From the NCBI GenBank assembly GCA_025454925.1, contig JALONM010000036.1, positions 1-37,802 of the forward strand: a stretch of DNA of 37,802 nucleotides, read 5' to 3'. Every line of letters starts with the position of its first letter. Positions within the stretch are counted from its first letter, which is position 1. Below the pieces are notes generated by a model. The model had not been told where the DNA came from and made no database searches. It worked only from the letters and a program-made list of their open reading frames with translations. The DNA comes from Cytophagaceae bacterium. Lineage in GTDB: Bacteria; Bacteroidota; Bacteroidia; Cytophagales; Cytophagaceae. The translations under genes were made by a program, and so were the position numbers. This document shows, in pieces, positions 9,277 to 22,380 of the stretch.

Positions 9277-10773
9277 ATGTTACACGATGCGTGGCAACAG
9301 TTCTCCATTCGCGAAGGAGGCTTTATTATCAAAACCTTTTTCCGTGTTATCCCTATTTTTACATTTCTTTTCCTGGCGAACAACATAGCCATGGGGCAAG
9401 AAAAGGAACTCATTCCCGGAGACATCCAATACGACAGCATTGGACCGGGACCATGGAAGTTTTATGGAAACCAAATACAAGGATTAAAAAAAACCAAACC
9501 GTATATTATTCTGCGGGAAATTCCATGGAAAACCGGAGACTCCCTTTCCATCGAAAAATTAAACCAGGAACTGCCCTGGGTCCGCAACCGGATTTTTAAT
9601 ACCGGACTGTTTTTATCTGTATCCTTAGAAATAACTAGGCATGAAGATTCTACCCTGGTATTAGTGGTAAAAGTGAAAGAGCGATTTTACACCTATCCTA
9701 TTCCAATACTGGAGTTAGCCGATCGTAATTTTAATGAATGGTGGTTTCAAAGAGGCCGGGATCTTAACCGACTCGATGTTGGTTTGTATTTAAAACAAAA
9801 AAATGTCCGAGGTAGAAATGAAACTTTCAAACTCAAGTTCACCCTGGGCTTTAACAAAAAGCTGGAAATCCAATATCAGTTTCCATACCTAAATAAAAAA
9901 CTAAAAACAGGGTTGGTTTTGTTTTCCGGAATCATCCTCAACCGCCAAGCGGCAGCCAGCACACAAGACAACCAACTTGTATTTTTAGAAACTTCAGGCA
10001 TATTACGAACCCGCTTTAATGGAGGCTTTTATTTTACAAGAAGGAATTCATTTTATACTGCTCACCAACTAGGTATGCAGTATCAATATATTCGCATCCA
10101 GGATACGCTGGCTAGCGTGAATCCATTGTATTTGTTAGATAGCTCGAATGAACAACATGGTCTTTCCTTGCGTTATCAATGGCTTTTCGACCGGCGCGAT
10201 TTTGCTAAATATCCATTAAAAGGACATTATTGTTTAATGGAACCCGAAGGAATACGATTTGAGAATCAAAAACGAGTGTACTGGATTGCTCAGGCAAGAC
10301 TGGAAGCCGCGCATTATAAGCCTTTGGGAAAACGATGGAATTGGGCGAATACACTTCGGATAAAATGGTCCTCCTCTCCTACTCAAGCCTATTTTAATCA
10401 ACGAGGTTTTGGATATAAAGAGGATTTTGTGAGTGGATACCAATTATATGTAATCGATGGCACTCAATTCTTTTTAACCAAATCACATCTGAGATGGAAA
10501 CTATTCGCATCGAATTTCGAAAATCCATTCATGCCTCTTGCAAAATTCAAACAAACGCCTTTTCTAATAATGCTAAAAGTGTTATTGGAAAGCGGTTATG
10601 TTCACCAACCAATTTTATACGGATCAGAAAATAATTTAGGAAACACCTGGCTGTATGGGTACGGAGTAGGAATAGATATCAGTTCTTACTACGATGCGGT
10701 AGCACGCATTGAGATAAGTCGAAATCACTTACATGAAACAGGAATATATCTACACTTGAAAGCAGCCTTTTAA
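9277..10773 (+). CDS. POTRA plus beta-barrel outer-membrane protein (BamA/TamA-like)
   Basis: About 498 residues from the ATG at 9277 (a GTG at 9247 is also in frame). A hydrophobic export signal lies at about residues 27-40 (FRVIPIFTFLFLANNIAMGQ), after a longer than usual N-terminus, so a rarer internal start cannot be excluded. Next comes one POTRA-like module (KPYIILREIPWKTGDSLS, NRIFNTGLF, VVKVKERFYTYP), then a C-terminal beta-barrel ending in an aromatic residue (HLKAAF), the usual signature for BAM-dependent insertion. With one POTRA it is shorter than BamA itself (five POTRAs, about 800 residues) and is probably a specialised Omp85-type assembly or translocation protein. It ends convergently, overlapping the PorP/SprF gene by four bases. 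Confidence 0.82.
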   Translation: MLHDAWQQFSIREGGFIIKTFFRVIPIFTFLFLANNIAMGQEKELIPGDIQYDSIGPGPWKFYGNQIQGLKKTKPYIILREIPWKTGDSLSIEKLNQELPWVRNRIFNTGLFLSVSLEITRHEDSTLVLVVKVKERFYTYPIPILELADRNFNEWWFQRGRDLNRLDVGLYLKQKNVRGRNETFKLKFTLGFNKKLEIQYQFPYLNKKLKTGLVLFSGIILNRQAAASTQDNQLVFLETSGILRTRFNGGFYFTRRNSFYTAHQLGMQYQYIRIQDTLASVNPLYLLDSSNEQHGLSLRYQWLFDRRDFAKYPLKGHYCLMEPEGIRFENQKRVYWIAQARLEAAHYKPLGKRWNWANTLRIKWSSSPTQAYFNQRGFGYKEDFVSGYQLYVIDGTQFFLTKSHLRWKLFASNFENPFMPLAKFKQTPFLIMLKVLLESGYVHQPILYGSENNLGNTWLYGYGVGIDISSYYDAVARIEISRNHLHETGIYLHLKAAF

Positions 10774-11804
10774 TGCTTGTAGAAACTTGGACAAGGCAGA
10801 CGTTTCATAGGCTTGTATTTTTTGCTCTGGTGATGAACATACGTCAGATTCAACTCATGAGAACCACCCGTTCTCACCGTAGCCAAGGTAGAAACTGTAA
10901 AATCATAGCTGTACCCAGCACTCCAATTGTTGTACTTCCAACCTGCCATTAAGACCAACGATTCATTGTTTTGAAGATTGCTGATGTATTTCTTAAATGG
11001 AATACCTCTATACCACATACCCGCCATTAATTGATCGTATATTAAATACACGCCAATATCTGTTTGGTCAGCCTTCCCTTGAGATTTATAATGAAATGTT
11101 GGTGTCAAACTAATTTCTTTAGAATCTTCCAGATGAGGCAGATAATTTTTCTTCTTTAAGTAAATTTTGTACCCTCCAGTAACCGCGAATTTCATTGGCA
11201 AACGTTCTTCCCCGCCGGTTACCGACTGATTGGGTTGATTGACGTGGTGCAAGGATATACCTCCCCAGAGATTATTAGTATACGCCACTGCTCCCGTTGA
11301 AAAATCGAAGAATCGACGTTGTGCCCCACCACTGGCTACGGTGCCGTCAAATCCATTCCGATCATCGAAATTTTCGGGGAAACGTAATTTAGAATAATCA
11401 ACAGACCTTGAAACGTAGGAAGCTTGTAAACCTGGTCGAATAGTAAGTGATTTGGAAACGGGAATCTCATAGGAATATAGCGCAGCCACCTCCGTAGAAG
11501 CTAGCATAGAGCCGGCCTGCCAATCTTTAAACACCATTAATCCGGCACCACTTCTGTATTTTGCCCAAAAATGATCTACCGAGACCAAACTCGTTGTATA
11601 ACGGCTTAATGATGGTGCTGTGGCAGAACTTCGTATTCCAGGCCATTGAAGCCTGTTGTGAAGCATCATCCTGGGGGCATGTGCACTACCTGCAAAAGCT
11701 GGATTCTGATACATCGGAACCGCATAAAACTGGGAAAACTGTATGTCTTGAGACCATACGGTGCAGGTGATAATCAGCAATATAATTTTCCAAACTAGGT
11801 TCAT
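10770..11804 (-). CDS. PorP/SprF family type IX secretion membrane protein
   Basis: A 344-residue outer-membrane protein. Signal peptide about 1-18 (ending VWSQ), followed by the family hallmark DIQFSQFYAVPMYQNPAFAG and later NRLQWPGI, and a run of amphipathic strands that build the barrel. PorP/SprF proteins work with the type IX secretion system of Bacteroidota; SprF-like members serve as partners for cargo with a type B C-terminal sorting domain, anchoring or helping export it. A suitable type B cargo is encoded at 13196-14806 on the same strand, separated by a DUF4159 gene. The gene is probably transcribed alone: there is a 495-base gap upstream. It shares a four-base convergent overlap with the barrel-protein gene. 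Confidence 0.93.
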   Translation of the reverse strand: MNLVWKIILLIITCTVWSQDIQFSQFYAVPMYQNPAFAGSAHAPRMMLHNRLQWPGIRSSATAPSLSRYTTSLVSVDHFWAKYRSGAGLMVFKDWQAGSMLASTEVAALYSYEIPVSKSLTIRPGLQASYVSRSVDYSKLRFPENFDDRNGFDGTVASGGAQRRFFDFSTGAVAYTNNLWGGISLHHVNQPNQSVTGGEERLPMKFAVTGGYKIYLKKKNYLPHLEDSKEISLTPTFHYKSQGKADQTDIGVYLIYDQLMAGMWYRGIPFKKYISNLQNNESLVLMAGWKYNNWSAGYSYDFTVSTLATVRTGGSHELNLTYVHHQSKKYKPMKRLPCPSFYKH

Positions 11805-12109
11805 CTTCCCTCAAATCTTAAAAATACCTTACTCACTATACGAGAGAATGGACTAAAAAGATGAAAAATGTGGAAATAATTTAAAATCTGTAACTCAATA
11901 GAATTTAAAATCCGCGTATGCAAAACTATTAGCATTTTGTATAGCGGTTCCTTTATGCGTTGAGTTTTAAAAGGATGTGACAGAAAGAAACACTCTTGTT
12001 CAAATAATTATCCTTACCATTTGTTGCAACTAAAATGTAAGTTACAAAACACCTAGTGCTCCTTGCTAGTCCTTTAGTCCTTCATTTGGAGTCATGGTAT
12101 CATACATGA

Positions 12110-12144
12110 AGAAGGGGCACAAACTTTCGTTTGAAGCCCCTTCT
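12110..12144. repeat. Long two-part stem-loop in the 11.8-12.3 kb gap
   Basis: AGAAGGGGC (12110-12118) pairs with GCCCCTTCT (12136-12144), and inside it CAAAC (12120-12124) pairs with GTTTG (12129-12133). The T-tract is poor on both strands, so it is either a weak terminator for the DUF4159 gene (minus) or part of a structured small RNA. Confidence 0.6.
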
Positions 12145-12150
12145 GTTATT

Positions 12151-12174
12151 TAGAATCAGGACCAACAGATTCTA
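12151..12174. repeat. Second hairpin next to the long stem-loop
   Basis: TAGAATC (12151-12157) pairs with GATTCTA (12168-12174) around ten bases and is followed by AAAAATC. It begins seven bases after the preceding hairpin ends. Confidence 0.5.
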
Positions 12175-12299
12175 AAAATCATAAATATTCTATATTGATT
12201 TCCGTGCCAATGTTGAACTTGTATGTATACGAAAAGAAAAAAAAATGTGATATCACTTTTCAAATACATTTATTGCCGAATCAAAGAAGTTTATTAGCC

Positions 12300-12971
12300 T
12301 CACTGATACGAAGTGAACGCATAGGTAAGTATGTTGCAACCCATTTGTAGCGCCTTTTGACGGATTTCTTCAGGGTCATTGTAAATCACCTGATCTTCCC
12401 ATCCATTCCCTAAATCGCATTCGTAGGTATAAAAAACGACCAACCGGCCTTCGTACAACAATCCGTATCCCTTAGGTGGCTTATTATCGTGTTCGTGCAC
12501 TTTAGGCAAACCCGCAGGGAATTTAAATTTTTGGTGATATATAGGATGAGAAAAAGGAAGCTCCACCAATGTTAATTCCGGGAAAACTTTCTTTAACTCA
12601 ATGCGAATAAATTTATCTAATCCATAGTTGTCATCGATATGCAAAAAGCCGCCTGCCACCAGGTAGGATCGTAGGTTACGAGCCTCTGCATCGCTGAAGA
12701 CCACATTCCCATGACCCGTCATGTGCACAAAAGGGTAGTTAAAAATTTCTTTGCTCCCCGCTTCCACCACATCCTCCTCTGGAGCCAGATTGAAGCGCGC
12801 CTGTTGTGAACAGAACTTAATAAGATTAGGTAAAGATGTCTTATTCGCATACCAATCACCACCGCCATTGTATTTTAACCGCGCGATCTTTACAGGAGCT
12901 GTAACAGAGCTTGTAAACATAAAAATTAAGCCAAGCACTAGTAGTAATATTCGCAAGGAGTTTAAACGCAT
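12300..12971 (-). CDS. DUF4159 domain protein, exported
   Basis: A 223-residue protein with a signal peptide (about 1-25, LRILLLVLGLIFMFTSSVTA) and a complete DUF4159 domain: KIARLKYNGGGDWYAN near the start of the mature chain, then YPFVHMTGHGNVVFSD, GGFLHIDDNYGLDKF, HPIYH and a C-terminal YNDPEEIRQKALQMGCNILTYA. The fold resembles class I glutamine amidotransferase-like (ThuA-like) domains, but no catalytic role is established. In many Bacteroidota such proteins sit in gene groups with MoxR ATPases and DUF58 proteins; here it stands alone between PorP/SprF and a T9SS cargo gene. It probably acts in the periplasm. Confidence 0.9.
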   Translation of the reverse strand: MRLNSLRILLLVLGLIFMFTSSVTAPVKIARLKYNGGGDWYANKTSLPNLIKFCSQQARFNLAPEEDVVEAGSKEIFNYPFVHMTGHGNVVFSDAEARNLRSYLVAGGFLHIDDNYGLDKFIRIELKKVFPELTLVELPFSHPIYHQKFKFPAGLPKVHEHDNKPPKGYGLLYEGRLVVFYTYECDLGNGWEDQVIYNDPEEIRQKALQMGCNILTYAFTSYQ

Positions 12972-13195
12972 ACGCAGTATTTACGCGCCTAAAGTAGTAA
13001 AATTTTAAAAATGCTAATAACCATTCATTCAATAATTACTAATAAAAATCAAATGTTTAAACCAACATTTTCCTTTGTTAGATAGTATAGAATTTCCGGT
13101 TTAAGAAATCATCCTAAGAAGTAAAAACATTAAACAAATTAAAAAAACATTAAACAAAACAACTCTTTTAAAATATTAGACTACTCATTCAAGAA

Positions 13196-14806
13196 TTATT
13201 TCACCACATGCACCCAACCCGTTTCGGCAGTGCATGAAGGGTATTGATATTGATAAAAGTAAATACCTCCGCTTAATCCGGAAGCATTCCAATCGTTTTG
13301 ATATTTAGAATTTGTATAAACCAAGGCCCCATAACTATTAAAGATTTGAATGTCTAAGGGAATAACAGGAGTAGTAGTAACCTCAAAATACTCATTCCAG
13401 TCATCACCATTGGGGGTGATGAGGTTTGGAGAGTAAAAGCGAGGAATAATAACCTCGAGGGTATCGGAAACTTTATTGCTGCATACATCCTGAATATCCA
13501 ACCAGTATCGGCCGGGAGATTGAATCTCGAGCTCAAAGGCCTCGGATCCATTATTCCATAATGCTTTCCAATAAGGATTCGATGGTATCTTTATGGAAAC
13601 GTTAGGTTTACAAGACACAATGGGAGAACCCAATTCGAGTGTTGGATTTGTAACGGAAGAAATTTTTATTTCATCATAATACCTGCAACCATCTGAACTG
13701 GTTACCATCAGTGAATAGAGACCCGGGGTTACGACTGTAAATTGCTCGTCCGTAAAAGAGTTTTGCCAGGAACGGGTAGTCACGCCAGCCGGTGCTTGCA
13801 AAATAATCGATGTAGTAGCACAAAGTATAGTGTCGGGGCCTAAGGAAAAAACGGGTATTGGAAAAGCCGTTATAAATTCCGATTTCTCAAGAATTCTTCC
13901 ACAATAATTGGCTCGTGCCCATACGGTAGCCGATTGCTGCACCACAAAATTCAAAGTAAACGAGGGTGCGATTTGTTTACCGGAAGCATCCCACCATTGA
14001 ATTCCTGGTGCGCCAATGGCGGTAAGTTGAATGTTTGATCCCACACATAAAGTAGGATCGCCGCTAATTACAATGGTTGGATCGCTTCGCAATTCTACCA
14101 GAATATCATCCACCAGATAATATGGAAAATCCATTGAATTATTTTTACCTAAATCCAATACCTGTGTATTGGCTTGGGTATCGAAGTTGCCAATAATCAG
14201 ATATTGATAATTTCCTTGTGCAGTAAATGTGCCCGAAATTTTTGTCCATGAAATGGAGTCTGAAATAATGGCCGATTCTTTAATTTGAGGAAGCCTTGAT
14301 ATCATCGTAAAAGATTCCTCAAATTCATCTTGTTCGGTAAAGTACATTCCAAGGTTATTTTGAGCCCGATTGCATTGATCGGCAAGACTCACAAACATTT
14401 CAGCATAATATTCCTGACCGGCAATCATCGGACAATTTAATTTCACTTTCAGGTATTCCCTGCGTGCATCGCGCAAGGGTTTAATGCCTGCCACCACTTC
14501 ACCAGTCCTTGGCATTTGATCTCGTTGTGGGAAAAAAGGATCAAATGCTTCTGTTTGAGGCAAAGCAACTATAGAGTATTCATCTACGCGCGTCGATAAA
14601 ATATCCGTGGTACCATAATTCGGACATTTCCAATCTTTAACTGTATTTTGAAAATCGATGTAGGAACCTGAAGTATAATACGGTGCATAATTCAAATTCT
14701 CAAAACTCGGATTGGGTACCAGATTTTGCGCGTTTGAAAGGGGAAGCAGAATACTATAAAGCGCGGATACCACCGCGAATACCAGTCTGTCTTTTTTCTT
14801 CTTCAT
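13196..14806 (-). CDS. T9SS type B sorting domain (gliding motility C-terminal) surface protein
   Basis: A 536-residue exported protein. Signal peptide about 1-27 (ending PLSNAQ). The N-terminal region (about 28-240) starts NLVPNPSFENLNYAPYYTSG and looks like a carbohydrate-binding-type jelly roll seen in many such surface proteins. About 245-445 holds Ig/PKD-like modules (DPTLCVGSNIQLTA and FSLGPDTILCATTS). The last about 85 residues are the CHU_C type B sorting domain: NLITPNGDDWNEYFEV, LDIQIFNSYGALVY, GLSGGIYFYQ and a final WVHVVK. It should be exported by the type IX system and attached to the surface with a PorP/SprF partner such as the one at 10770. Its start lies 53 bases inside the glycosyltransferase gene; no later methionine would keep the signal peptide, so the overlap is likely real. 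Confidence 0.92.
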   Translation of the reverse strand: MKKKKDRLVFAVVSALYSILLPLSNAQNLVPNPSFENLNYAPYYTSGSYIDFQNTVKDWKCPNYGTTDILSTRVDEYSIVALPQTEAFDPFFPQRDQMPRTGEVVAGIKPLRDARREYLKVKLNCPMIAGQEYYAEMFVSLADQCNRAQNNLGMYFTEQDEFEESFTMISRLPQIKESAIISDSISWTKISGTFTAQGNYQYLIIGNFDTQANTQVLDLGKNNSMDFPYYLVDDILVELRSDPTIVISGDPTLCVGSNIQLTAIGAPGIQWWDASGKQIAPSFTLNFVVQQSATVWARANYCGRILEKSEFITAFPIPVFSLGPDTILCATTSIILQAPAGVTTRSWQNSFTDEQFTVVTPGLYSLMVTSSDGCRYYDEIKISSVTNPTLELGSPIVSCKPNVSIKIPSNPYWKALWNNGSEAFELEIQSPGRYWLDIQDVCSNKVSDTLEVIIPRFYSPNLITPNGDDWNEYFEVTTTPVIPLDIQIFNSYGALVYTNSKYQNDWNASGLSGGIYFYQYQYPSCTAETGWVHVVK

Positions 14807-15902
14807 AATAAACCCGACCTTTCCATTCTACTTTACGAATGAATAAATATTGCAGAATTACCAATGGAGATAATACCAAACTATACCATTCAAATAAAAC
14901 GGTATGCAGCCATAGGTGATATCGCAAACCTACTCTTTTAAAACACATCCTCATAAACATCTGCTGAAAACCTATTTTCAGTATCCAGGCAAAGAGGGTG
15001 AATACCGGCATAAACCAAAAACCCAGGAACAAAGCTGGCAATACCAGCCCTTGCAGAAACAATACAAAAAGCAATACCAAAGGAAGTTTCATAGCGCCTT
15101 GCATCCAGCGCCGGCGTTGCTTTAGCAAAGCGCTCCAGTTGTGAATGGGTTGTGTCAATGCCAGACAGGAGCTATTCATCAAATTTTTAAATTTCCAGCC
15201 GTGCTTGATGGTTTCCAGAAATAACGCCTGATCTTCCGTTACTGAGAAAGGTATTGCTTCATAGCCACCAGTATCTTCATATGCCTTACGACGTATTGCC
15301 ATATTGTTTCCTACCGCACTTACAGGCAGATTCCAATCCGACACTATGCGCACCATACCAAAAGCATACAGCCAATCCAGTTGTTGCGCTTTGCCAAGCC
15401 AATGAATGGGTTGAGAGCTAGTACAACCTGACACAATACCCGTTTGAGGAGTAAAAGCCTCTAACAAACTTTGTATCCAGGTGGTTGGAACCTGAATGTC
15501 GGCATCTGTGATAAAAAAATAGTCTCCCTTTGCTTTCCGTGCCAATTGCGCCAGCACGTTGGCTTTTCCCTTTGCTAATCCAACAGTATCAGTGATATTG
15601 ATGTACTGAATATGTGAAAACAAATGCGCATAGCGCTGTAGTATCAATTCGGTGCAGTCCGTGGAGGCATCGTTCCCGATCCATATTTCAAGTCTATCGA
15701 AAGGATAATCGAGCTGCAACAATGCCTGGAGACACATTTCCAAATTATCTTCTTCATTGCGAGCCGCCACTAATATAGATACTAAGGGAACCTCCTGGTG
15801 CTGTTTTGGGTGTTTTGTACCGTTTGTAATGAAATGTAGCACCACTAAAAGCCACAAGCTGCACAAAAGCAAACTCCAATATAGGATGAGTAGCATGGTC
15901 AT
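14754..15902 (-). CDS. Family 2 glycosyltransferase, membrane-bound
   Basis: A 382-residue processive-type GT2. One N-terminal membrane segment (about 4-25), then the catalytic domain: VSILVAARNEEDNLE (41-54), ND at 77-78, DAD at 133-135 (nucleotide-sugar and metal binding), TED at 222-224 (general base region) and QRRRW at 262-266 (the QxxRW acceptor motif). Two or three further membrane segments follow at about 273-345. This layout matches poly-N-acetylglucosamine or cellulose-synthase-like enzymes that polymerise and may export a glycan. Its ATG overlaps the end of the NodB-like deacetylase gene by four bases (ATGA), and it overlaps the T9SS cargo gene downstream, so the three form an operon. 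A GT2 with a deacetylase suggests a surface amino-sugar glycan; the sugar itself cannot be read. Confidence 0.92.
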   Translation of the reverse strand: MTMLLILYWSLLLCSLWLLVVLHFITNGTKHPKQHQEVPLVSILVAARNEEDNLEMCLQALLQLDYPFDRLEIWIGNDASTDCTELILQRYAHLFSHIQYINITDTVGLAKGKANVLAQLARKAKGDYFFITDADIQVPTTWIQSLLEAFTPQTGIVSGCTSSQPIHWLGKAQQLDWLYAFGMVRIVSDWNLPVSAVGNNMAIRRKAYEDTGGYEAIPFSVTEDQALFLETIKHGWKFKNLMNSSCLALTQPIHNWSALLKQRRRWMQGAMKLPLVLLFVLFLQGLVLPALFLGFWFMPVFTLFAWILKIGFQQMFMRMCFKRVGLRYHLWLHTVLFEWYSLVLSPLVILQYLFIRKVEWKGRVYYEEEKRQTGIRGGIRAL

Positions 15903-16543
15903 AGCGTGGCAGTGGTAAAGGAATTTTTATGCAAGTATTCTAAAAATACAGGTAAAATAGATTTCAGCTTTTGTTCTGCTTTCAGATTATCATGAAAAAC
16001 AATGATAGCACCTGGTTTCGCTCCTCGTATTGCCTTTTGCAGCACTTGCTGGGCTGTTAGGGATGCATTATAATCCTGAGTCAGCACATTCCACATCACG
16101 ATTTCATATTTCTGTTTTAGTCCTTGGTACTGTGCTCTGGTAAATCGACCATACGGAGGCCTAAACAAGGGTTTGCCCGACTTTCCAATATTGGCTAAGG
16201 GAAACGAATGCTTGGAGAATTCCTGCTCCCACAAGCCTATATCCTCCCAATATTTTTCTGCAGAGGTTTTCCAACCTTTGATATGGTGATAGGTGTGATT
16301 GCCGATAGCATGCCCTTCCATACATAAACGATTGAATACACTGGGATGCTTGCGAATATTATCCCCCACACAAAAAAAGGTTGCTTTAAAATTGTATTTT
16401 TTTAGTTCATCCAACACAAATTCAGTAAGACCAGGAATTGGACCATCGTCAAAGGTTAGATAAATCGTTTTTTCCGATGCCTTGACCTTCCAGGTAACAA
16501 ATGGGAATAGTATTTTTAAAAGTGGGTACAAAGAATCGATCAT
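15899..16543 (-). CDS. Polysaccharide deacetylase (NodB/CE4 family)
   Basis: A 214-residue single-domain CE4 enzyme. Visible motifs: TFDDGP at 30-35 (catalytic base and metal aspartates), HTYHH at 83-87 (metal histidines H83 and H87), RPPYGR at 128-133, and the late VFHD motif with H184. Together these are the full metal-binding and catalytic set, so activity is expected, removing acetyl groups from N-acetylated sugars in peptidoglycan, chitin-like or PNAG-like glycans. The N-terminus has a short hydrophobic stretch (LLKILFPFVTW) rather than a clear signal peptide, so it may be a membrane-associated or cytosolic-side enzyme. First gene of the deacetylase, glycosyltransferase and T9SS cargo operon. 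Confidence 0.94.
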   Translation of the reverse strand: MIDSLYPLLKILFPFVTWKVKASEKTIYLTFDDGPIPGLTEFVLDELKKYNFKATFFCVGDNIRKHPSVFNRLCMEGHAIGNHTYHHIKGWKTSAEKYWEDIGLWEQEFSKHSFPLANIGKSGKPLFRPPYGRFTRAQYQGLKQKYEIVMWNVLTQDYNASLTAQQVLQKAIRGAKPGAIIVFHDNLKAEQKLKSILPVFLEYLHKNSFTTATL

Positions 16544-16649: not shown

Positions 16650-16811
16650 ATGAAAAAATTCCTCCTAACACTTATCCTAGCGTTGTTCTCTTTAAGCGCT
16701 GTTGGCGCAATGCCTCCTAAATCAGGAAAACCAGGTAAAGCTGGTAAACACCACAGTCACAAGAGGGCTAAGAAGAAAAAATCCGGGTACTATTTCAACT
16801 TTATGCATTAA
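16650..16811 (+). CDS. 53-residue secreted basic peptide
   Basis: A short gene read directly from the sequence. The product is 53 residues: a textbook signal peptide (residues 1-20, MKKFLLTLILALFSLSAVGA) followed by a 33-residue mature part with a Lys/Gly/His/Ser-rich tail (for example KSGKPGKAGKHHSHKRAKKK) and an aromatic end (GYYFNFMH). There is no cysteine. No family is recognised. Its reality is supported by the signal peptide, the strong bidirectional terminator that starts five bases after its stop, and its lone position between divergent and convergent neighbours. The strongly cationic, His-rich mature peptide could bind nucleic acid, polyanionic glycan or metal, or be antimicrobial; these are guesses. 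Confidence 0.75.
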   Translation: MKKFLLTLILALFSLSAVGAMPPKSGKPGKAGKHHSHKRAKKKKSGYYFNFMH

Positions 16812-16815
16812 TAGA

Positions 16816-16839
16816 AAAAGAGGGCTCAGGCCCTCTTTT
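16816..16839. terminator. Bidirectional terminator between the 53-residue gene and menD
   Basis: AAAAGAGGGC (16816-16825) pairs perfectly with GCCCTCTTTT (16830-16839) around TCAG. A-tract and T-tract flank the stem on both strands, so it can end the plus-strand peptide transcript and the minus-strand menaquinone operon. Confidence 0.88.
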
Positions 16840-16876: not shown

Positions 16877-18538
16877 TTACAAGACCAGTGATTTTTTGAA
16901 TTCCTGAAACGCCCTCGTACAAATCTCTACCTCTGTTTTCCATTCCCAGAACGTTAATCCCGAAGCTTGCAAAAACTGAGAAAGACTTTGCACAAAGTCC
17001 TCTTTGCTTGTAGTGGCTAAATAGAAAGCCCCTGTATCCTGAACGGTATGAGCGATGGAAAACGGTTGTCGTGTAACAAAATATTCTCTGGCTTCAGGCT
17101 GTCGGGCAGGACCATCAATCATATTAAATATAGCCCCTCCTTGATTGTTCAATACGACCACTTTTAAATTTTGTGGAAGATCGTTGTGCCAAAAAGCATT
17201 TCGGTCATAAAAGAAGGACAAATCTCCTGCTATCAGGAGGATTTTTTTTTCAGGATTGGCTAATGCCTCTCCTACCGCTGTACTGATGCTTCCATCAATG
17301 CCGCTGGTTCCTCGGTTGCAGCGAAGCCTAGCCGTTAAGGCACCAAAGGATAAATAGCTGCCATACCGTACCGTCATGCTATTGCTGAGATGAATTACAT
17401 CGAACGAATCCAGGAAAGGGCGCAGTTGCATAAGTCCATAAACATCGCTCCAGGGAAGTTCATCCACGTGGGATATTACTTTTGATAGCGCTTGTTCCGA
17501 ACACTGCTTTGCCTTATTCCAGGCAACCTTGAAGGCATCCTCGTTCTTCCTCTCATACGCTGCTAAAAAGGCTTCGGGAGATACACGTAAAATATTCGTA
17601 AGCCGTTTAAATGGATCGGCAACCTCACCCTGGTCTTGCAAATGCCAATGCGCTGCATCAGAAGTACGAATGAACTGCTTGAATGCTTTGGACAAAAAAG
17701 ATTTTCCTGTGGTAATAATCAAATCAGGACGCAGAACAGACCAACAAGCACTATCGGAAAGCAATATATCTATGGTATGAATACAGGCATCCTCCTTTTG
17801 ATTGGACAATACATCGGCAATCACAGGAATTCCATAATTCGAAAGGGAGCGCAAGGAATTGCCTAAGGCCGGTTCTGATTGCTGTCCGACCGCAATTACA
17901 ATTTTTTTATAGGCCAAAAGTTGCTCCGCCAACACTCCAGATATCGGACCTGCAGAAGGCCATTGGTATTCATGTCGCCAAAGACGAATGGTATCTTTTA
18001 CCAATTCTCCTTCCGGATAAAAAGGCTCTCGTATGGGAATATTAATATGTACTGGCCCGCCTGGGGCTGCGCTTGCCAACAAGGCCGCTTCCTGAATAAT
18101 CCGGTGTGCATGCCATTGTGCATCGGGATGCTCGGTATCCACAGGAAACTGGTAAAATCCTTTAACATGATTTCCAAACAGCTGTTGTTGCCGAATCGAT
18201 TGTCCATCTTGCTGATCAATCCATTCCGGTGGTCGATCGGCAGTCAGTACAATCAAGGGAATTTGCTGGTACCAGGCTTCAATCACGGCAGGCCCGTAGT
18301 TCGCGGCGGCCGTTCCTGATGTACATACCAATACCGCTGGCCTGCCGCTACCCAGGGATGTTCCCAGGCCTATAAATGCTGCACTGCGTTCGTCGGAAAT
18401 GCTGCGTACAGTAAATCCACCATGTCGAGCAAAAGCGATGGTAAGCGGTGCACAGCGCGATCCAGGACTCAACACTACCTGATCGATTCCATAATGATGG
18501 AGAAGATCCGGAATTACATGTATAGAGGATAAATTCAT
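16877..18538 (-). CDS. menD: 2-succinyl-5-enolpyruvyl-6-hydroxy-3-cyclohexene-1-carboxylate synthase
   Basis: MenD joins isochorismate and 2-oxoglutarate, using thiamine diphosphate, in menaquinone synthesis. The 553-residue protein shows the expected features: SPGSR (24-28) and the TPP-activating glutamate in SDER (E50), LVCTSGTAAANYGPAV, LTADRPPE, DQQDGQSIRQ, and the TPP/metal site beginning AGDLSFFYD with D439 and the DRNAFWHND segment. It is the last gene of the men operon, ending just before the bidirectional terminator, and it starts 29 bases after the second propeller lipoprotein. The later pathway genes menB, menC, menE and menA are not in this window. Confidence 0.96.
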   Translation of the reverse strand: MNLSSIHVIPDLLHHYGIDQVVLSPGSRCAPLTIAFARHGGFTVRSISDERSAAFIGLGTSLGSGRPAVLVCTSGTAAANYGPAVIEAWYQQIPLIVLTADRPPEWIDQQDGQSIRQQQLFGNHVKGFYQFPVDTEHPDAQWHAHRIIQEAALLASAAPGGPVHINIPIREPFYPEGELVKDTIRLWRHEYQWPSAGPISGVLAEQLLAYKKIVIAVGQQSEPALGNSLRSLSNYGIPVIADVLSNQKEDACIHTIDILLSDSACWSVLRPDLIITTGKSFLSKAFKQFIRTSDAAHWHLQDQGEVADPFKRLTNILRVSPEAFLAAYERKNEDAFKVAWNKAKQCSEQALSKVISHVDELPWSDVYGLMQLRPFLDSFDVIHLSNSMTVRYGSYLSFGALTARLRCNRGTSGIDGSISTAVGEALANPEKKILLIAGDLSFFYDRNAFWHNDLPQNLKVVVLNNQGGAIFNMIDGPARQPEAREYFVTRQPFSIAHTVQDTGAFYLATTSKEDFVQSLSQFLQASGLTFWEWKTEVEICTRAFQEFKKSLVL

Positions 18539-18567
18539 ACCTGAAAGATAGGCTGAAATACCGAGTG

Positions 18568-19638
18568 CTACAAACGGAGATTGTGTTTGTGCAACGCAAT
18601 GGTTTTCGCGTTACTATTACCGGAAGAAGCAGGAGCAGGTAAGAGATGGGATTGACCATTCTGCCAATATACCGCAGTGGAGTACTCATTATTTTTACCT
18701 TCGGATCCGCAAGCATACCAATCGTCACCATCCAGGTATGCGTCGTAACAATAGGATCGCAAAGGCTTATCATCCAGAAAGGTTACTGTACCCTGTTTCC
18801 AATAGCAAGCCTTAGTCAATTGGGTACTTGGATGTGATTGAAAACCAAAAAAAAGAATATCATCGTTTTTAATCAAAATACTATGAGCTTCGCCCTCCCG
18901 AATATGGTTCGCAAGATCGGTTCGGGAAAAATTCTTCCAACATACGGGATATACAGATCTATTCACCGTATCCTTAGAACCGACTGTTACTACCGAAGTA
19001 TCGTTTATAATTTTCAAATCAAATACTTCTGAAGCATACCTTCCATAATCTAACGTATACAAAACATTTTCTTTCCAATAGGCGGCATGGCTATCCTGTG
19101 AGCCTGCCACATAAAGTTCGTTGTCCTTTACAAAAATGACATTGGCTTTTGAGTTACTTTCTGCATTACCTAATGCTGTCCTGACTCCATTTTTCCAATA
19201 AACAGCTTTAGAATTCCCAAGACTATCAAATTCATATCCGGAAATATAAATATCATTTTTTTCAATAAAGATAGAAGTAGCTTTTGCAAAAGAATTAATA
19301 GAAACGGGCAATTCCTGACTTCGTCCATTTTTCCAATACACTGGAATTGTAACAAATCTATTCAGCCCAAATTTATTGATGTATCCACAGGCATGCACAT
19401 CGTCTCTTATAACTTGCATATCCAAAAATTCTGTCAAATCAGGATACCCTAGCATCAGGTCTGAATTTTTACAAATAAAGGATACTGAATTAAAAATGCC
19501 AGCTACCAAGATGGTAGTGCTTGGACCTGAAAATGGTTTTATGACATCTTCATTGCTTTGCTTTTTATTAATACAAGAATGGAAGGACAAAAATACCCAC
19601 AAGCATATAGCCCATGAACGTTTACTTTCGATTTTCAT
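18568..19638 (-). CDS. Putative lipoprotein, seven YWKNG-type units (probable beta-propeller), copy 1
   Basis: A 356-residue exported protein with a lipoprotein-like signal ending in LSFHSC (lipid-attachment cysteine C22). The rest is a tandem array of units of roughly 45 residues: a YWKNG-type turn, a short strand, then AxxIxxxxxxxYVAG. Units can be traced near VYWKNGRSQEL, VYWKNGVRTAL, AYWKENVLYTL, VCWKNFSRTDL, CYWKQGTVTFL and VYWQNGQSHLL, with a degenerate first unit (FICKNSDLML), giving seven. Seven such units suggest a closed seven-bladed propeller, though the fold is inference. It is clearly a paralogue of the next gene upstream in the operon; both have C22 and matching unit order. It lies between menF and menD. 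Any role in quinone metabolism is unproven; it may only share the transcript. Confidence 0.83.
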   Translation of the reverse strand: MKIESKRSWAICLWVFLSFHSCINKKQSNEDVIKPFSGPSTTILVAGIFNSVSFICKNSDLMLGYPDLTEFLDMQVIRDDVHACGYINKFGLNRFVTIPVYWKNGRSQELPVSINSFAKATSIFIEKNDIYISGYEFDSLGNSKAVYWKNGVRTALGNAESNSKANVIFVKDNELYVAGSQDSHAAYWKENVLYTLDYGRYASEVFDLKIINDTSVVTVGSKDTVNRSVYPVCWKNFSRTDLANHIREGEAHSILIKNDDILFFGFQSHPSTQLTKACYWKQGTVTFLDDKPLRSYCYDAYLDGDDWYACGSEGKNNEYSTAVYWQNGQSHLLPAPASSGNSNAKTIALHKHNLRL

Positions 19639-19663
19639 AGCGTGGTTACGTTGAGAAAGTAAA

Positions 19664-19687
19664 GATATAAATAATTCTATTTATATC
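19664..19687. repeat. AT-rich inverted repeat between the two paralogous lipoprotein genes
   Basis: GATATAAA (19664-19671) and TTTATATC (19680-19687) are perfect complements with an eight-base loop, inside the 66-base gap. There is no strong T-tract on the minus strand (TTTACTTT follows), so partial termination or RNA processing is possible. Confidence 0.45.
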
Positions 19688-19704
19688 CCGAGTTATCCAC
19701 CCTA

Positions 19705-20778
19705 CTATTTAGCAATAGCAATAGCCTGAGATTCTCCCACGATGCCTGGCGAGAGGAATACGGTGGCTTCCTTATTTTTCCAATAGGCAGCAGAATATAC
19801 CCCGGAAGAATGCAATGCTTCTCCGCATGCGTATAAATCTTCGCCATCAAAACAAGCATTGTAGCAATACGAACTGGTAGCGGAATTACCCATATACACC
19901 AGTGAATCGTTTTTCCAATAGCAGGCTTGTTCTAAAGAAGTAGAAGGATTAGTGGCATATCCGAAAATATACGTGTCGCTTTTTTTATTTAAAACCTGGT
20001 AGGCTTCTCCACTGTAAGTAAGTGCCGTAAGTTCTTTTCTGGTAAAATTATTCCATCGTACAGGAAGTCTTACACTGTTGATGGTATCTTTATAACCAAC
20101 CGTAAGAACTGTGGAAGCATCTTGTTTAAGGAGATTATTAAGCGATGATTTGTAATTGCCAAAATCTAATTGATAACGCTGTGCTCCTTTCCAATACACG
20201 GCATGATTATCTTCTTCACCTGCCACATACACTTCTTGATTATCAACGTAAATGGCTTTTGCCAGGGCGTTAACCGCGCCATTGCTCAGCGTTGTTTTAA
20301 CACCATTTTTCCAGTATACAGCCACTAATTTACCCTGAGAGTTCCGCTCCTCTCCGCAGATATACACATCTCCCTGATCAAGCCAAATGGCATTGGCCAC
20401 CGAATAATCAGCAGAAGAGGAAGGAAGGGTAACACTAATTCCATTCTTCCAATATATGGCCGTAAAAGTATTTGAATTATTAAATGATAAGCGTTTAAAA
20501 CCGCAGGCGTAACGATCGGAACCAACAATCTCTAAATCGGTGAAATTGCTCATCGTTGGATAGCTAGTAAACTGGCTTCCTTCCCAAAGAGTCGAAACAT
20601 TATTCACTATATTGTTGCTCTGAAGCGCATATCTACTGCCTGCTATAACTACCTTCGCAGTGGCCGGTACAATAGAAGTCTCATTCTCCTCTTTTACTTT
20701 TTTTAATTTGGTACAAGCCAGTAGGGATAACAATATTAGAAGAGCCAATAGTCTGAAAGTCGCTTGTTTGGATTTCAT
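19705..20778 (-). CDS. Putative lipoprotein, seven YWKNG-type units (probable beta-propeller), copy 2
   Basis: From the ATG at 20778 the product has 357 residues with a classic lipoprotein signal (MKSKQATFRLLALLILLSLL, then AC; lipobox LLAC, C22). An earlier in-frame ATG at 20802 would add eight residues before the signal and is less likely; the chosen start also aligns C22 with the paralogue. Seven units are visible: LWEGSQFTSY, IYWKNGISVTL, VYWKNGVKTTL, VYWKGAQRYQL, VRWNNFTRKEL, CYWKNDSLVYM and AYWKNKEATVF, each followed by a strand ending in YxxG. The N-terminal strand AKVVIAG may close the ring with the last unit. It starts 30 bases after the menF stop. Likely anchored in a membrane facing the periplasm or surface; ligand unknown. 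Confidence 0.84.
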   Translation of the reverse strand: MKSKQATFRLLALLILLSLLACTKLKKVKEENETSIVPATAKVVIAGSRYALQSNNIVNNVSTLWEGSQFTSYPTMSNFTDLEIVGSDRYACGFKRLSFNNSNTFTAIYWKNGISVTLPSSSADYSVANAIWLDQGDVYICGEERNSQGKLVAVYWKNGVKTTLSNGAVNALAKAIYVDNQEVYVAGEEDNHAVYWKGAQRYQLDFGNYKSSLNNLLKQDASTVLTVGYKDTINSVRLPVRWNNFTRKELTALTYSGEAYQVLNKKSDTYIFGYATNPSTSLEQACYWKNDSLVYMGNSATSSYCYNACFDGEDLYACGEALHSSGVYSAAYWKNKEATVFLSPGIVGESQAIAIAK

Positions 20779-20808
20779 AGGTGGAGCAGATTTAATGACC
20801 AAATATAG

Positions 20809-21957
20809 CTACAAAAACCTTCCGATCACATCCATTTTCAGTTCGGTTTCTTTCCATTCATTGTCTGCAATAGAATCTTGTGTAATGCCCGCACCTGCGT
20901 ACAACCAGGCACCGTGGCGAGTTAGTTCCGCGCATCGCAAATGCACAAACAATTGGGTATGCCCTTGCATATTTACCGGTCCGGTGAAGCCACTAAAGTA
21001 AGAGCGCGTTACACCTTCCTGTGTTTCCAGAAAGTGTCTGGATTCGGCGAGGGGCATGCCGCATACAGCCGAAGTGGGGTGCAACAATCGAAGCATAGTG
21101 CTGGCCAAATCCGGATAGTCAAGATCGTTCAGTCGTACAGTAAAATCGGTGCGCAAATGGAGTAATCGGCCAGCCTGGATGGTACGCGGACCATTCTCCT
21201 CAAATTCCCTCAATCGAATTGCTTTAAAGCAATTGATGATGTATCGGCTCACCAGCGCTTGCTCTTCTATTTCTTTCTGCGTCCAACTTACTTTTCTGGT
21301 TTCATAGCCTTCAACGGCCGGCTGAGTACCCGCCAGGGCTACCGTTTCAAAAATTTCTCCGTGCTTTAGCTTAACGAGAATTTCGGGGGAAGCAGAAATC
21401 CATAGTCCTGTCTGCGGATGTTTAAACATGGATACAAACGCATTCGGATAGGCTTGCCTAAGATTTTTATATAACAAAGCCAAAGACTCTGATTGATCGC
21501 TGTAAGCATCAAACTTTTTCCGGGCAAGCACTACTTTCTTCATGGAGCCACGCTCTATTTCCTCCACTGCATTATGGACAAGCCCATAATAATCCTGGTT
21601 AATCTCTGTATTGGATTCTTCTCTCAGAAAATTCTTCCAACCTAAGGTTTCTTGCACGGGCTTCAACAAGGATTCTCCCGTTTCTACAAGAAAGGTTAAG
21701 GGATTGTATTGAATGAGGGCATCGCAAGGAAAAAAATAAGCTTGATTAGAGCTTGTGTTGAACGGATGCACCAAATACCCACTGTTCATCTTTTCCAGAG
21801 GCTCTTCCATGCTCCAGGCACGCGCCTGATTGGTAAGTAGCACATTCTGAATGTGATTTTCCTGATCGTACCAAATGGCAAACGAAGAGTATTGAAATGC
21901 TACGTGCAAAGCCTCTTGTAAAAAATGCTCAAGAGAACGGATTTCGGGAACTGACAT
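20809..21957 (-). CDS. menF: Isochorismate synthase
   Basis: A 382-residue chorismate-binding enzyme that isomerises chorismate to isochorismate, the first committed step to menaquinone. Visible motifs: the conserved SMKKVVLARK (about 138-147, with the general-base lysine), WISASPEILVKLKHGEIFETVALAGT, then the signature LHPTSAVCGMPLAES and a late SYFSGFTGPV with LRCAEL. Because menI precedes it by three bases and menD is in the same operon, menaquinone rather than a siderophore (EntC/DhbC) is the likely fate of the isochorismate. Confidence 0.94.
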   Translation of the reverse strand: MSVPEIRSLEHFLQEALHVAFQYSSFAIWYDQENHIQNVLLTNQARAWSMEEPLEKMNSGYLVHPFNTSSNQAYFFPCDALIQYNPLTFLVETGESLLKPVQETLGWKNFLREESNTEINQDYYGLVHNAVEEIERGSMKKVVLARKKFDAYSDQSESLALLYKNLRQAYPNAFVSMFKHPQTGLWISASPEILVKLKHGEIFETVALAGTQPAVEGYETRKVSWTQKEIEEQALVSRYIINCFKAIRLREFEENGPRTIQAGRLLHLRTDFTVRLNDLDYPDLASTMLRLLHPTSAVCGMPLAESRHFLETQEGVTRSYFSGFTGPVNMQGHTQLFVHLRCAELTRHGAWLYAGAGITQDSIADNEWKETELKMDVIGRFL

Positions 21958-21960
21958 AAC

Positions 21961-22380
21961 TTACTTTTTCTCTACTATAGCCACCGTTAGTCTGCTGATG
22001 CACACCAGTTCGTTTTTGTCGTTTACAATTCTAATGTCCCAAACATGGGTGCGTTTACCACCATGCACCAGGGTAGCTTTGCCGGTAACCATACCCGAAG
22101 ATACGCTGCGGAGGTGATTGGCATTTATTTCCAAACCTACCGGATAGTGTGTAGATAGATCGATGAGTAAACTGGAAGCAATGCTTCCCAAGGTTTCGGC
22201 CAATACTACCGAGGCTCCCCCATGCAATAAGCCCATGGGTTGAACCGTCCTGTGGTCTACGGGCATTCTTCCTTCCAGAAAATCCACTCCAACCGCCGTG
22301 AGTTCTATGCCCAGGTGCTCCACCATTGTTCCTGCCGAACGTTTGTTTATTAAAATAAGGTCCGTTTCTGGATTTATCAT
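21961..22380 (-). CDS. menI: 1,4-dihydroxy-2-naphthoyl-CoA hydrolase-like hotdog thioesterase
   Basis: A 139-residue PaaI-type hotdog thioesterase. It resembles E. coli MenI (YdiI) through most of its length: MPVDHRTVQPMGLLHGG, ASVVLAETLGS, VGLEINANHLRS and SRLTVAIV. The catalytic glutamate is E62 of VVLAET, after HGG at 53-55. MenI hydrolyses DHNA-CoA to DHNA before prenylation. First gene of the operon menI-menF-(two lipoproteins)-menD, three bases before menF, which strengthens the specific assignment over a general PaaI thioesterase. It is divergent from the histidine phosphatase gene with 32 bases between the start codons, so any promoters must be compact or overlap the coding ends. Confidence 0.9.
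   Translation of the reverse strand: MINPETDLILINKRSAGTMVEHLGIELTAVGVDFLEGRMPVDHRTVQPMGLLHGGASVVLAETLGSIASSLLIDLSTHYPVGLEINANHLRSVSSGMVTGKATLVHGGKRTHVWDIRIVNDKNELVCISRLTVAIVEKK

Follow-up and report, generated by a model that had tools for sequence, protein, structure and literature searches.

A tandem pair of putative seven-bladed propeller lipoprotein genes between menF and menD of a Cytophagaceae bacterium, probably acquired by insertion and old duplication

Two tandem lipoprotein genes, here called lipoA and lipoB, separate menF from menD in the window, a stretch of 37,802 nucleotides of a Cytophagaceae bacterium. The arrangement probably reflects the insertion of a propeller lipoprotein gene, from a family otherwise scattered over the phylum, and its old duplication in tandem, the genes using the men transcript with no role of their products in menaquinone metabolism. 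On the minus strand, running from 22380 down to 16877, the order is TE (a MenI-like hotdog thioesterase, 21961..22380, which opens the run), a menF-like isochorismate synthase gene (20809..21957), lipoA (19705..20778, 357 aa), lipoB (18568..19638, 356 aa) and menD (16877..18538), all on the same strand and separated by spacers of 3, 30, 66 and 29 bases. Both lipoproteins carry Cys22, and the first-pass annotation was right in placing two tandem same-strand lipoprotein genes between menF and menD. The presumed insertion junctions are the 30 bases between menF and lipoA (20779..20808) and the 29 bases between lipoB and menD (18539..18567), on the same strand, and no 9-mer is common to the two junction regions.

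The men genes of the window differ in how firmly they are identified. The menD product scores 370.6 bits with TIGR00173, above the cut-off of 244.2 for MenD equivalogs; the isochorismate synthase model TIGR00543 is the best match of the menF-like product, at 208.7 bits under a curated cut-off of 224.75, and TE scores under the MenI/DHNA-CoA hydrolase cut-offs and passes at the domain level only. The lipoA open reading frame extends upstream to a possible TTG at 20802, and the signal peptide begins at the ATG at 20778. GC3 is 0.325 and 0.360 in lipoA and lipoB versus 0.41-0.49 in the men genes, a weak contrast since a nearby gene (15899-16543) has 0.381. Directly downstream of menD there is a terminator-like inverted repeat (16816..16839, scored on the plus strand and near-symmetric); taken overall, the terminator scan found such sites no commoner than in shuffles, and promoter scans for sigma-70-type and Bacteroidetes-type signals found no clear excess over shuffles. 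The same hairpin follows a 53-aa open reading frame on the plus strand (16650-16811), whose product has a signal-like start and a tail rich in Gly, Lys and His. Elsewhere in the window (10770-14806), a PorP/SprF-type protein and a CHU_C-tailed protein point to type IX secretion in the organism.

The proposed paralogy of the two lipoproteins was confirmed by 37% identity over 347 alignment columns (BLASTP E 4e-82), with both open reading frames intact. A relaxed W-unit motif occurs seven times in LipoA, with spacings of 45, 46, 40, 46, 46 and 45, and six times in LipoB, with spacings of 46, 40, 46, 46 and 45; shuffled sequences contained on average about 0.2 units, and none of 10,000 shuffles of either protein equalled the observed count. 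The seven matching YWKNG-type units claimed for each protein in the first-pass annotation were therefore found in LipoA (as W-K-N units), but LipoB has only six of them and a degenerate unit in first place, with ICKN at the position of the LipoA Trp, and exact YWKNG occurs just twice in each protein. The equal spacing of the units in the two proteins indicates duplication of a whole gene, which must be old because identity is just 37%, and given that both genes have stayed intact through such deep divergence they are probably selected for something. Neither protein had a match above cut-off in Pfam or NCBIfam, including Kelch, WD40, NHL and other named repeat families of Pfam, and neither matched PHROGs better than E 0.1. 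When 13 members of the wider family were scanned against Pfam, IPT/TIG was detected in four and three other models in single members, including FG-GAP_3 at E 0.0072. YWKNG was found in no paper searched, and no paper title (only titles were considered) concerned a tie between such lipoproteins and menaquinone.

AlphaFold2 modelling with 13 sequences gave pLDDT 85.7 for LipoA and 85.2 for LipoB, with pTM 0.82 and 28 strands after the signal region in both. In strand order, as distinct from measured geometry, the ring closes in a 3+1 manner, the last strand (349-356 in LipoA, 342-351 in LipoB) completing the first blade. These models support the view that LipoA and LipoB are seven-bladed propellers with four-stranded blades, in agreement with the seven-bladed appearance noted earlier, for which structure prediction had been named as the check. 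In structural comparisons of the LipoA model, the Foldseek matches were Kelch-type, TolB and designed propellers at TM-scores that were modest and for the most part 0.4-0.5, and VIA-align gave Z 20-28 to many propellers of differing function. These matches support the fold and not a function. A single-sequence search of the PDB returned four matches to unrelated molecules, at E 0.026 or worse, which were discarded.

Both proteins have a lipobox with its cysteine at position 22, the FHSC of LipoB being atypical, and would be anchored in the outer membrane. By a rule devised for this analysis, a lipobox-like Cys is present in 74 of 77 family members, and in 60 of these 74 at least one of the positions +2 to +6 is acidic. 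According to PMC5080379, the Bacteroidetes signal for the export of lipoproteins to the surface consists of acidic residues that immediately follow the Cys, such as K-(D/E)2. Measured against this signature, which may not be the signal of the window species itself, LipoA (CTKLKK) and LipoB (CINKKQ) lack D or E at +2 to +6, and so does a third family copy of the same genome. All three may therefore face the periplasm.

To place the arrangement in context, men loci were read in relatives, none of which belongs to the genus of the window. In the same family (f1) 18 genomes were sampled and 17 men loci read, the remaining genome (G008, 69% complete) having no menD match. TE-menF-menD occurs at 14 of the 17 loci, in the same order and orientation as in the window, and the genes are directly adjacent in 11 of these 14; in one further genome (G004) the contig ends at menD, and in two (G009 and G013) the stretch that was read showed no menF upstream of menD. 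Four genomes from three other families of the order (f13, f16 and f19) also have the cluster, which was present at 18 of 38 men loci of relatives order-wide. The lipoprotein family was found at none of these 38 loci, several of which are cut by contig ends, and LipoA had no match at E 1e-5 in any of the 18 same-family genomes. Moreover, menB follows menD in all four relatives tested, whereas the window has no menB directly after menD and carries the two lipoprotein genes at the menF-menD junction. Since menF and menD are uninterrupted in most relatives with the cluster, the arrangement in the window is derived. It had been proposed that intact menF-menD neighbourhoods in relatives, with the lipoproteins scattered elsewhere, would make the location accidental, and this is largely what the survey revealed.

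The junction accepts other cargo too, since other material was found in the menF-menD gap of three relatives: an open reading frame for a four-helix bundle (TIGR02436) in G002 (L072 6495-6860) and, by eye, repeat-like sequence in two genomes of one genus, G010 and G014 (L074 6600-6900 and L075 6740-7030). This differing cargo lends itself to a second explanation, which overlaps the one we prefer and is a possible but clearly less probable account, namely that TE-menF-menD junctions are permissive sites for unrelated cargo and that the lipoprotein family common to the window and to the case of family f42 described below is there by coincidence.

The lipoprotein family is patchy across Bacteroidota, with several tandem copies in some genomes. 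It was detected in 12 of 147 other relatives (13 of 148 with the genome of the window) and, by profile search, in at least 17 of 394 other genomes of the class (at least 18 of 395 with the own genome) and at least 30 of 395 genomes of the phylum. At most five candidates per genome were scored in the class, phylum and f42 searches, so that their counts are lower bounds, and four of the five matches outside the class in the phylum search sit in open frames of 790-2409 aa. The 12 named loci with a family member include Cytophagales, Chitinophagaceae, Sphingobacterium, Flavobacterium, Winogradskyella and Paludibacter, and a third copy of the window genome lies at an unrelated place (contig C27, L102 6839-8020). 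The named Cytophagales contig at L133 proved identical to contig G139:C743 of the same order as the window, which makes an origin of the window in Cytophagales probable. Most members are at places with no TE, menF or menD nearby: among 52 loci read up to about 8 kb around members (L133-L184), only L145 of genome G167 has TE and menF near the lipoprotein gene. Because LipoA and LipoB have no Pfam, NCBIfam or PHROG counterpart and their relatives are patchy and in some genomes multi-copy, naming the family would annotate many uncharacterised proteins.

Four propeller lipoprotein genes stand in tandem in a genome of the same order (L166 7608-11870). Relatives at L134, L135, L137 and L138 reach about 410 aa or more, and their N-terminal part probably contains an IPT/TIG domain, the four IPT/TIG matches among the 13 scanned members being assigned to these loci by length and sequence. 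A match on contig C76 of the own genome proved to be an antisense fragment with a stop and was rejected as a further copy, and a scan of viral contigs with LipoA gave 18 pattern matches and no relative.

The locus in G167 led to a second men-linked case, in family f42, for which 197 genomes were searched. At least 28 of them have a family member and at least 21 have the lipoprotein gene 2.0-4.3 kb from menF, with TE on its far side in 20 of the 21 (in G572 the contig starts there). The order, on one strand, is plsC-TE-lipoprotein-sigma-barrel-menF (L145 4177-8790), and G721 has three consecutive lipoprotein genes. The sigma gene is ECF-like, with Sigma70_r2 and r4 and TIGR02937 above cut-off, and the barrel-like gene has a sub-threshold OMP_b-brl match. 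All 24 sigma orthologues found among the 197 genomes lie 844-941 bases from menF (five short matches of about 180 aa, at E 7e-28 to 1e-25, were excluded, so that 24 of 29 genomes were kept), and each of the 24 is accompanied by a recognisable barrel-like gene; the propeller lipoprotein is present in 21 of the 24, G670, G538 and G549 being without it. No copy beside menF was seen in seven of the 28 genomes with a family member; in G613 and G632 the copies were not placed relative to menF, and there is no TE or sigma gene beside the best ones. A further member, in G551, was picked up by the phylum search about 67 kb from menF. Of the 197 f42 genomes, 40 had their men locus read completely; 34 of these loci had no cassette, and TE and menF are neighbours in 33 of the 34, the exception (G716) having an unlabelled open reading frame. 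Like the window, therefore, f42 has the same lipoprotein family inside a men gene pair, but at another junction (TE-menF), with sigma and barrel-like partners and with lipoproteins that form a clade of their own.

This recurrence, with its constant gene order and its fixed distance from menF, is what speaks for a functional tie, at the envelope, between the lipoproteins and the metabolism of menaquinone or isochorismate. The men cluster would then have recruited them repeatedly for that reason, for instance to bind a quinone-linked component or to serve an envelope process that must be matched to quinone supply. We consider such a tie unlikely, given that the family is absent from the 38 men loci of relatives noted above, that nearly all members outside f42 are away from men genes, and that the window and f42 differ in junction and partners, no sigma or barrel gene being found near members other than at L145 (E 0.01) and no match to them in the window. 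Permissive junctions are also compatible with f42, where the cassette occupies one site and is patchy on the menF tree (52 of the 197 genomes, including 20 of the 24 with the cassette), with nine changes, four of them forced by starred branches, and may have been maintained there or passed from genome to genome through recombination in the conserved flanks. That the same uncommon lipoprotein family is found in both the window and f42 is left unexplained by permissive sites.

Whether the two cases go back to one event was addressed with a family tree of 77 proteins, restricted to rows of 300-480 aa. The 22 f42 men-locus proteins form one group and LipoA and LipoB a separate pair (SH-aLRT 100), so that the men-locus label needs two changes on the tree, as repeated recruitment for a functional tie would also demand. 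A constraint uniting all 24 men-locus proteins costs 39.5 log-likelihood units; the AU test gives p 0.088, and a single origin, which would weigh against a functional tie, is thus not formally rejected. Taken with the different junctions and the empty clusters in relatives, the tree favours two separate recruitments over one origin.

As a control for common neighbours, genes within 4 kb were compared across 49 family loci. TE and menF are common to the window and L145, and 14 other groups of open reading frames are also common to differently labelled loci, which weakens the case for a functional tie. Thirteen of the 14 groups link two labels each (one consists of two loci of Chitinophagaceae) and the last is a wide group of signalling proteins. 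In three groups a locus of f74 (L153) is matched with one of f5 (L170), their common neighbours being what we take to be an HxlR-like regulator, a SnoaL-like protein and a short-chain dehydrogenase. One common neighbour alone is therefore weak evidence, and the men case is set apart by its position inside a gene cluster and by its persistence at one site in f42. Assuming about 47 other loci and about 4,000 genes per genome, a rough estimate is that chance alone would give 0.04 further cases inside the cluster, and 0.1-0.2 at up to 4 kb from it. Histidine kinases and similar signalling proteins accompany the family at 9 of 47 other loci, about the number estimated from gene density, and were not counted as enriched.

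In the scenario that we prefer, an ancestral lipoprotein gene would have been inserted, in the lineage of the window, between menF and menD of an ancestral TE-menF-menD cluster, with tandem duplication before or after this event. After export and lipidation on Cys22, the products would sit at the outer membrane as seven-bladed discs, in which three N-terminal strands and the last C-terminal strand are predicted to close the ring, and would act by binding a ligand or a partner protein. Presumably on the same transcript as TE, menF and menD, lipoA and lipoB are probably co-expressed with them, with no part in menaquinone chemistry, and the location of the pair in the men cluster is probably chance. 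Of the two alternatives raised in the first-pass annotation, insertion with local duplication on the men transcript is thus the better supported, and the link between an envelope process and quinone supply is kept alive by the f42 case, which makes the chance location less certain. A more specific version of that link, which strikes us as improbable, is that part of the family is an envelope module that is coupled to the supply of menaquinone and was recruited at least twice, as a bare tandem pair in the window and with a sigma factor and an outer-membrane barrel in f42; if so, one transcript would set both quinone synthesis and a lipoprotein of the outer membrane. Were the recurrence in men clusters functional, it would hint at an outer-membrane partner for menaquinone supply; otherwise it illustrates clearly how unrelated lipoprotein cargo can ride on a run of core biosynthetic genes.

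Among known systems, the propeller fold of LipoA is common to lactonase, virginiamycin B lyase and CylK-type propellers (Z 22-28), which have seven blades. These proteins are enzymes with 6-14% identity to LipoA, and a common function is not shown. A closer parallel in anchoring is BtuG (PDB 3DSM, 8ptf and 8ptd), which, like the window pair, is a Bacteroidota lipoprotein with a seven-bladed propeller and is reported to be at the cell surface (PMC6143338). The LipoA model aligns with 8ptf at Z 21.1 and rmsd 3.2 over 267 residues, and a profile search reaches the BtuG chains 8ptf and 8ptd at E 0.024 over partial length. One might then suppose that the propellers bind naphthoquinones or menaquinone precursors for scavenging, as BtuG binds vitamin B12. 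We regard this as very unlikely, since Z 20-28 is common to many propellers of other function, the sequence similarity is marginal at that E value, and LipoA and LipoB have no acidic residues right after Cys22. The defining trait of BtuG is femtomolar binding of B12, and it is linked to btuB and cobalamin genes (PMC6143338), whereas the window pair is flanked by TE, menF and menD, with no transporter among the flanking genes.
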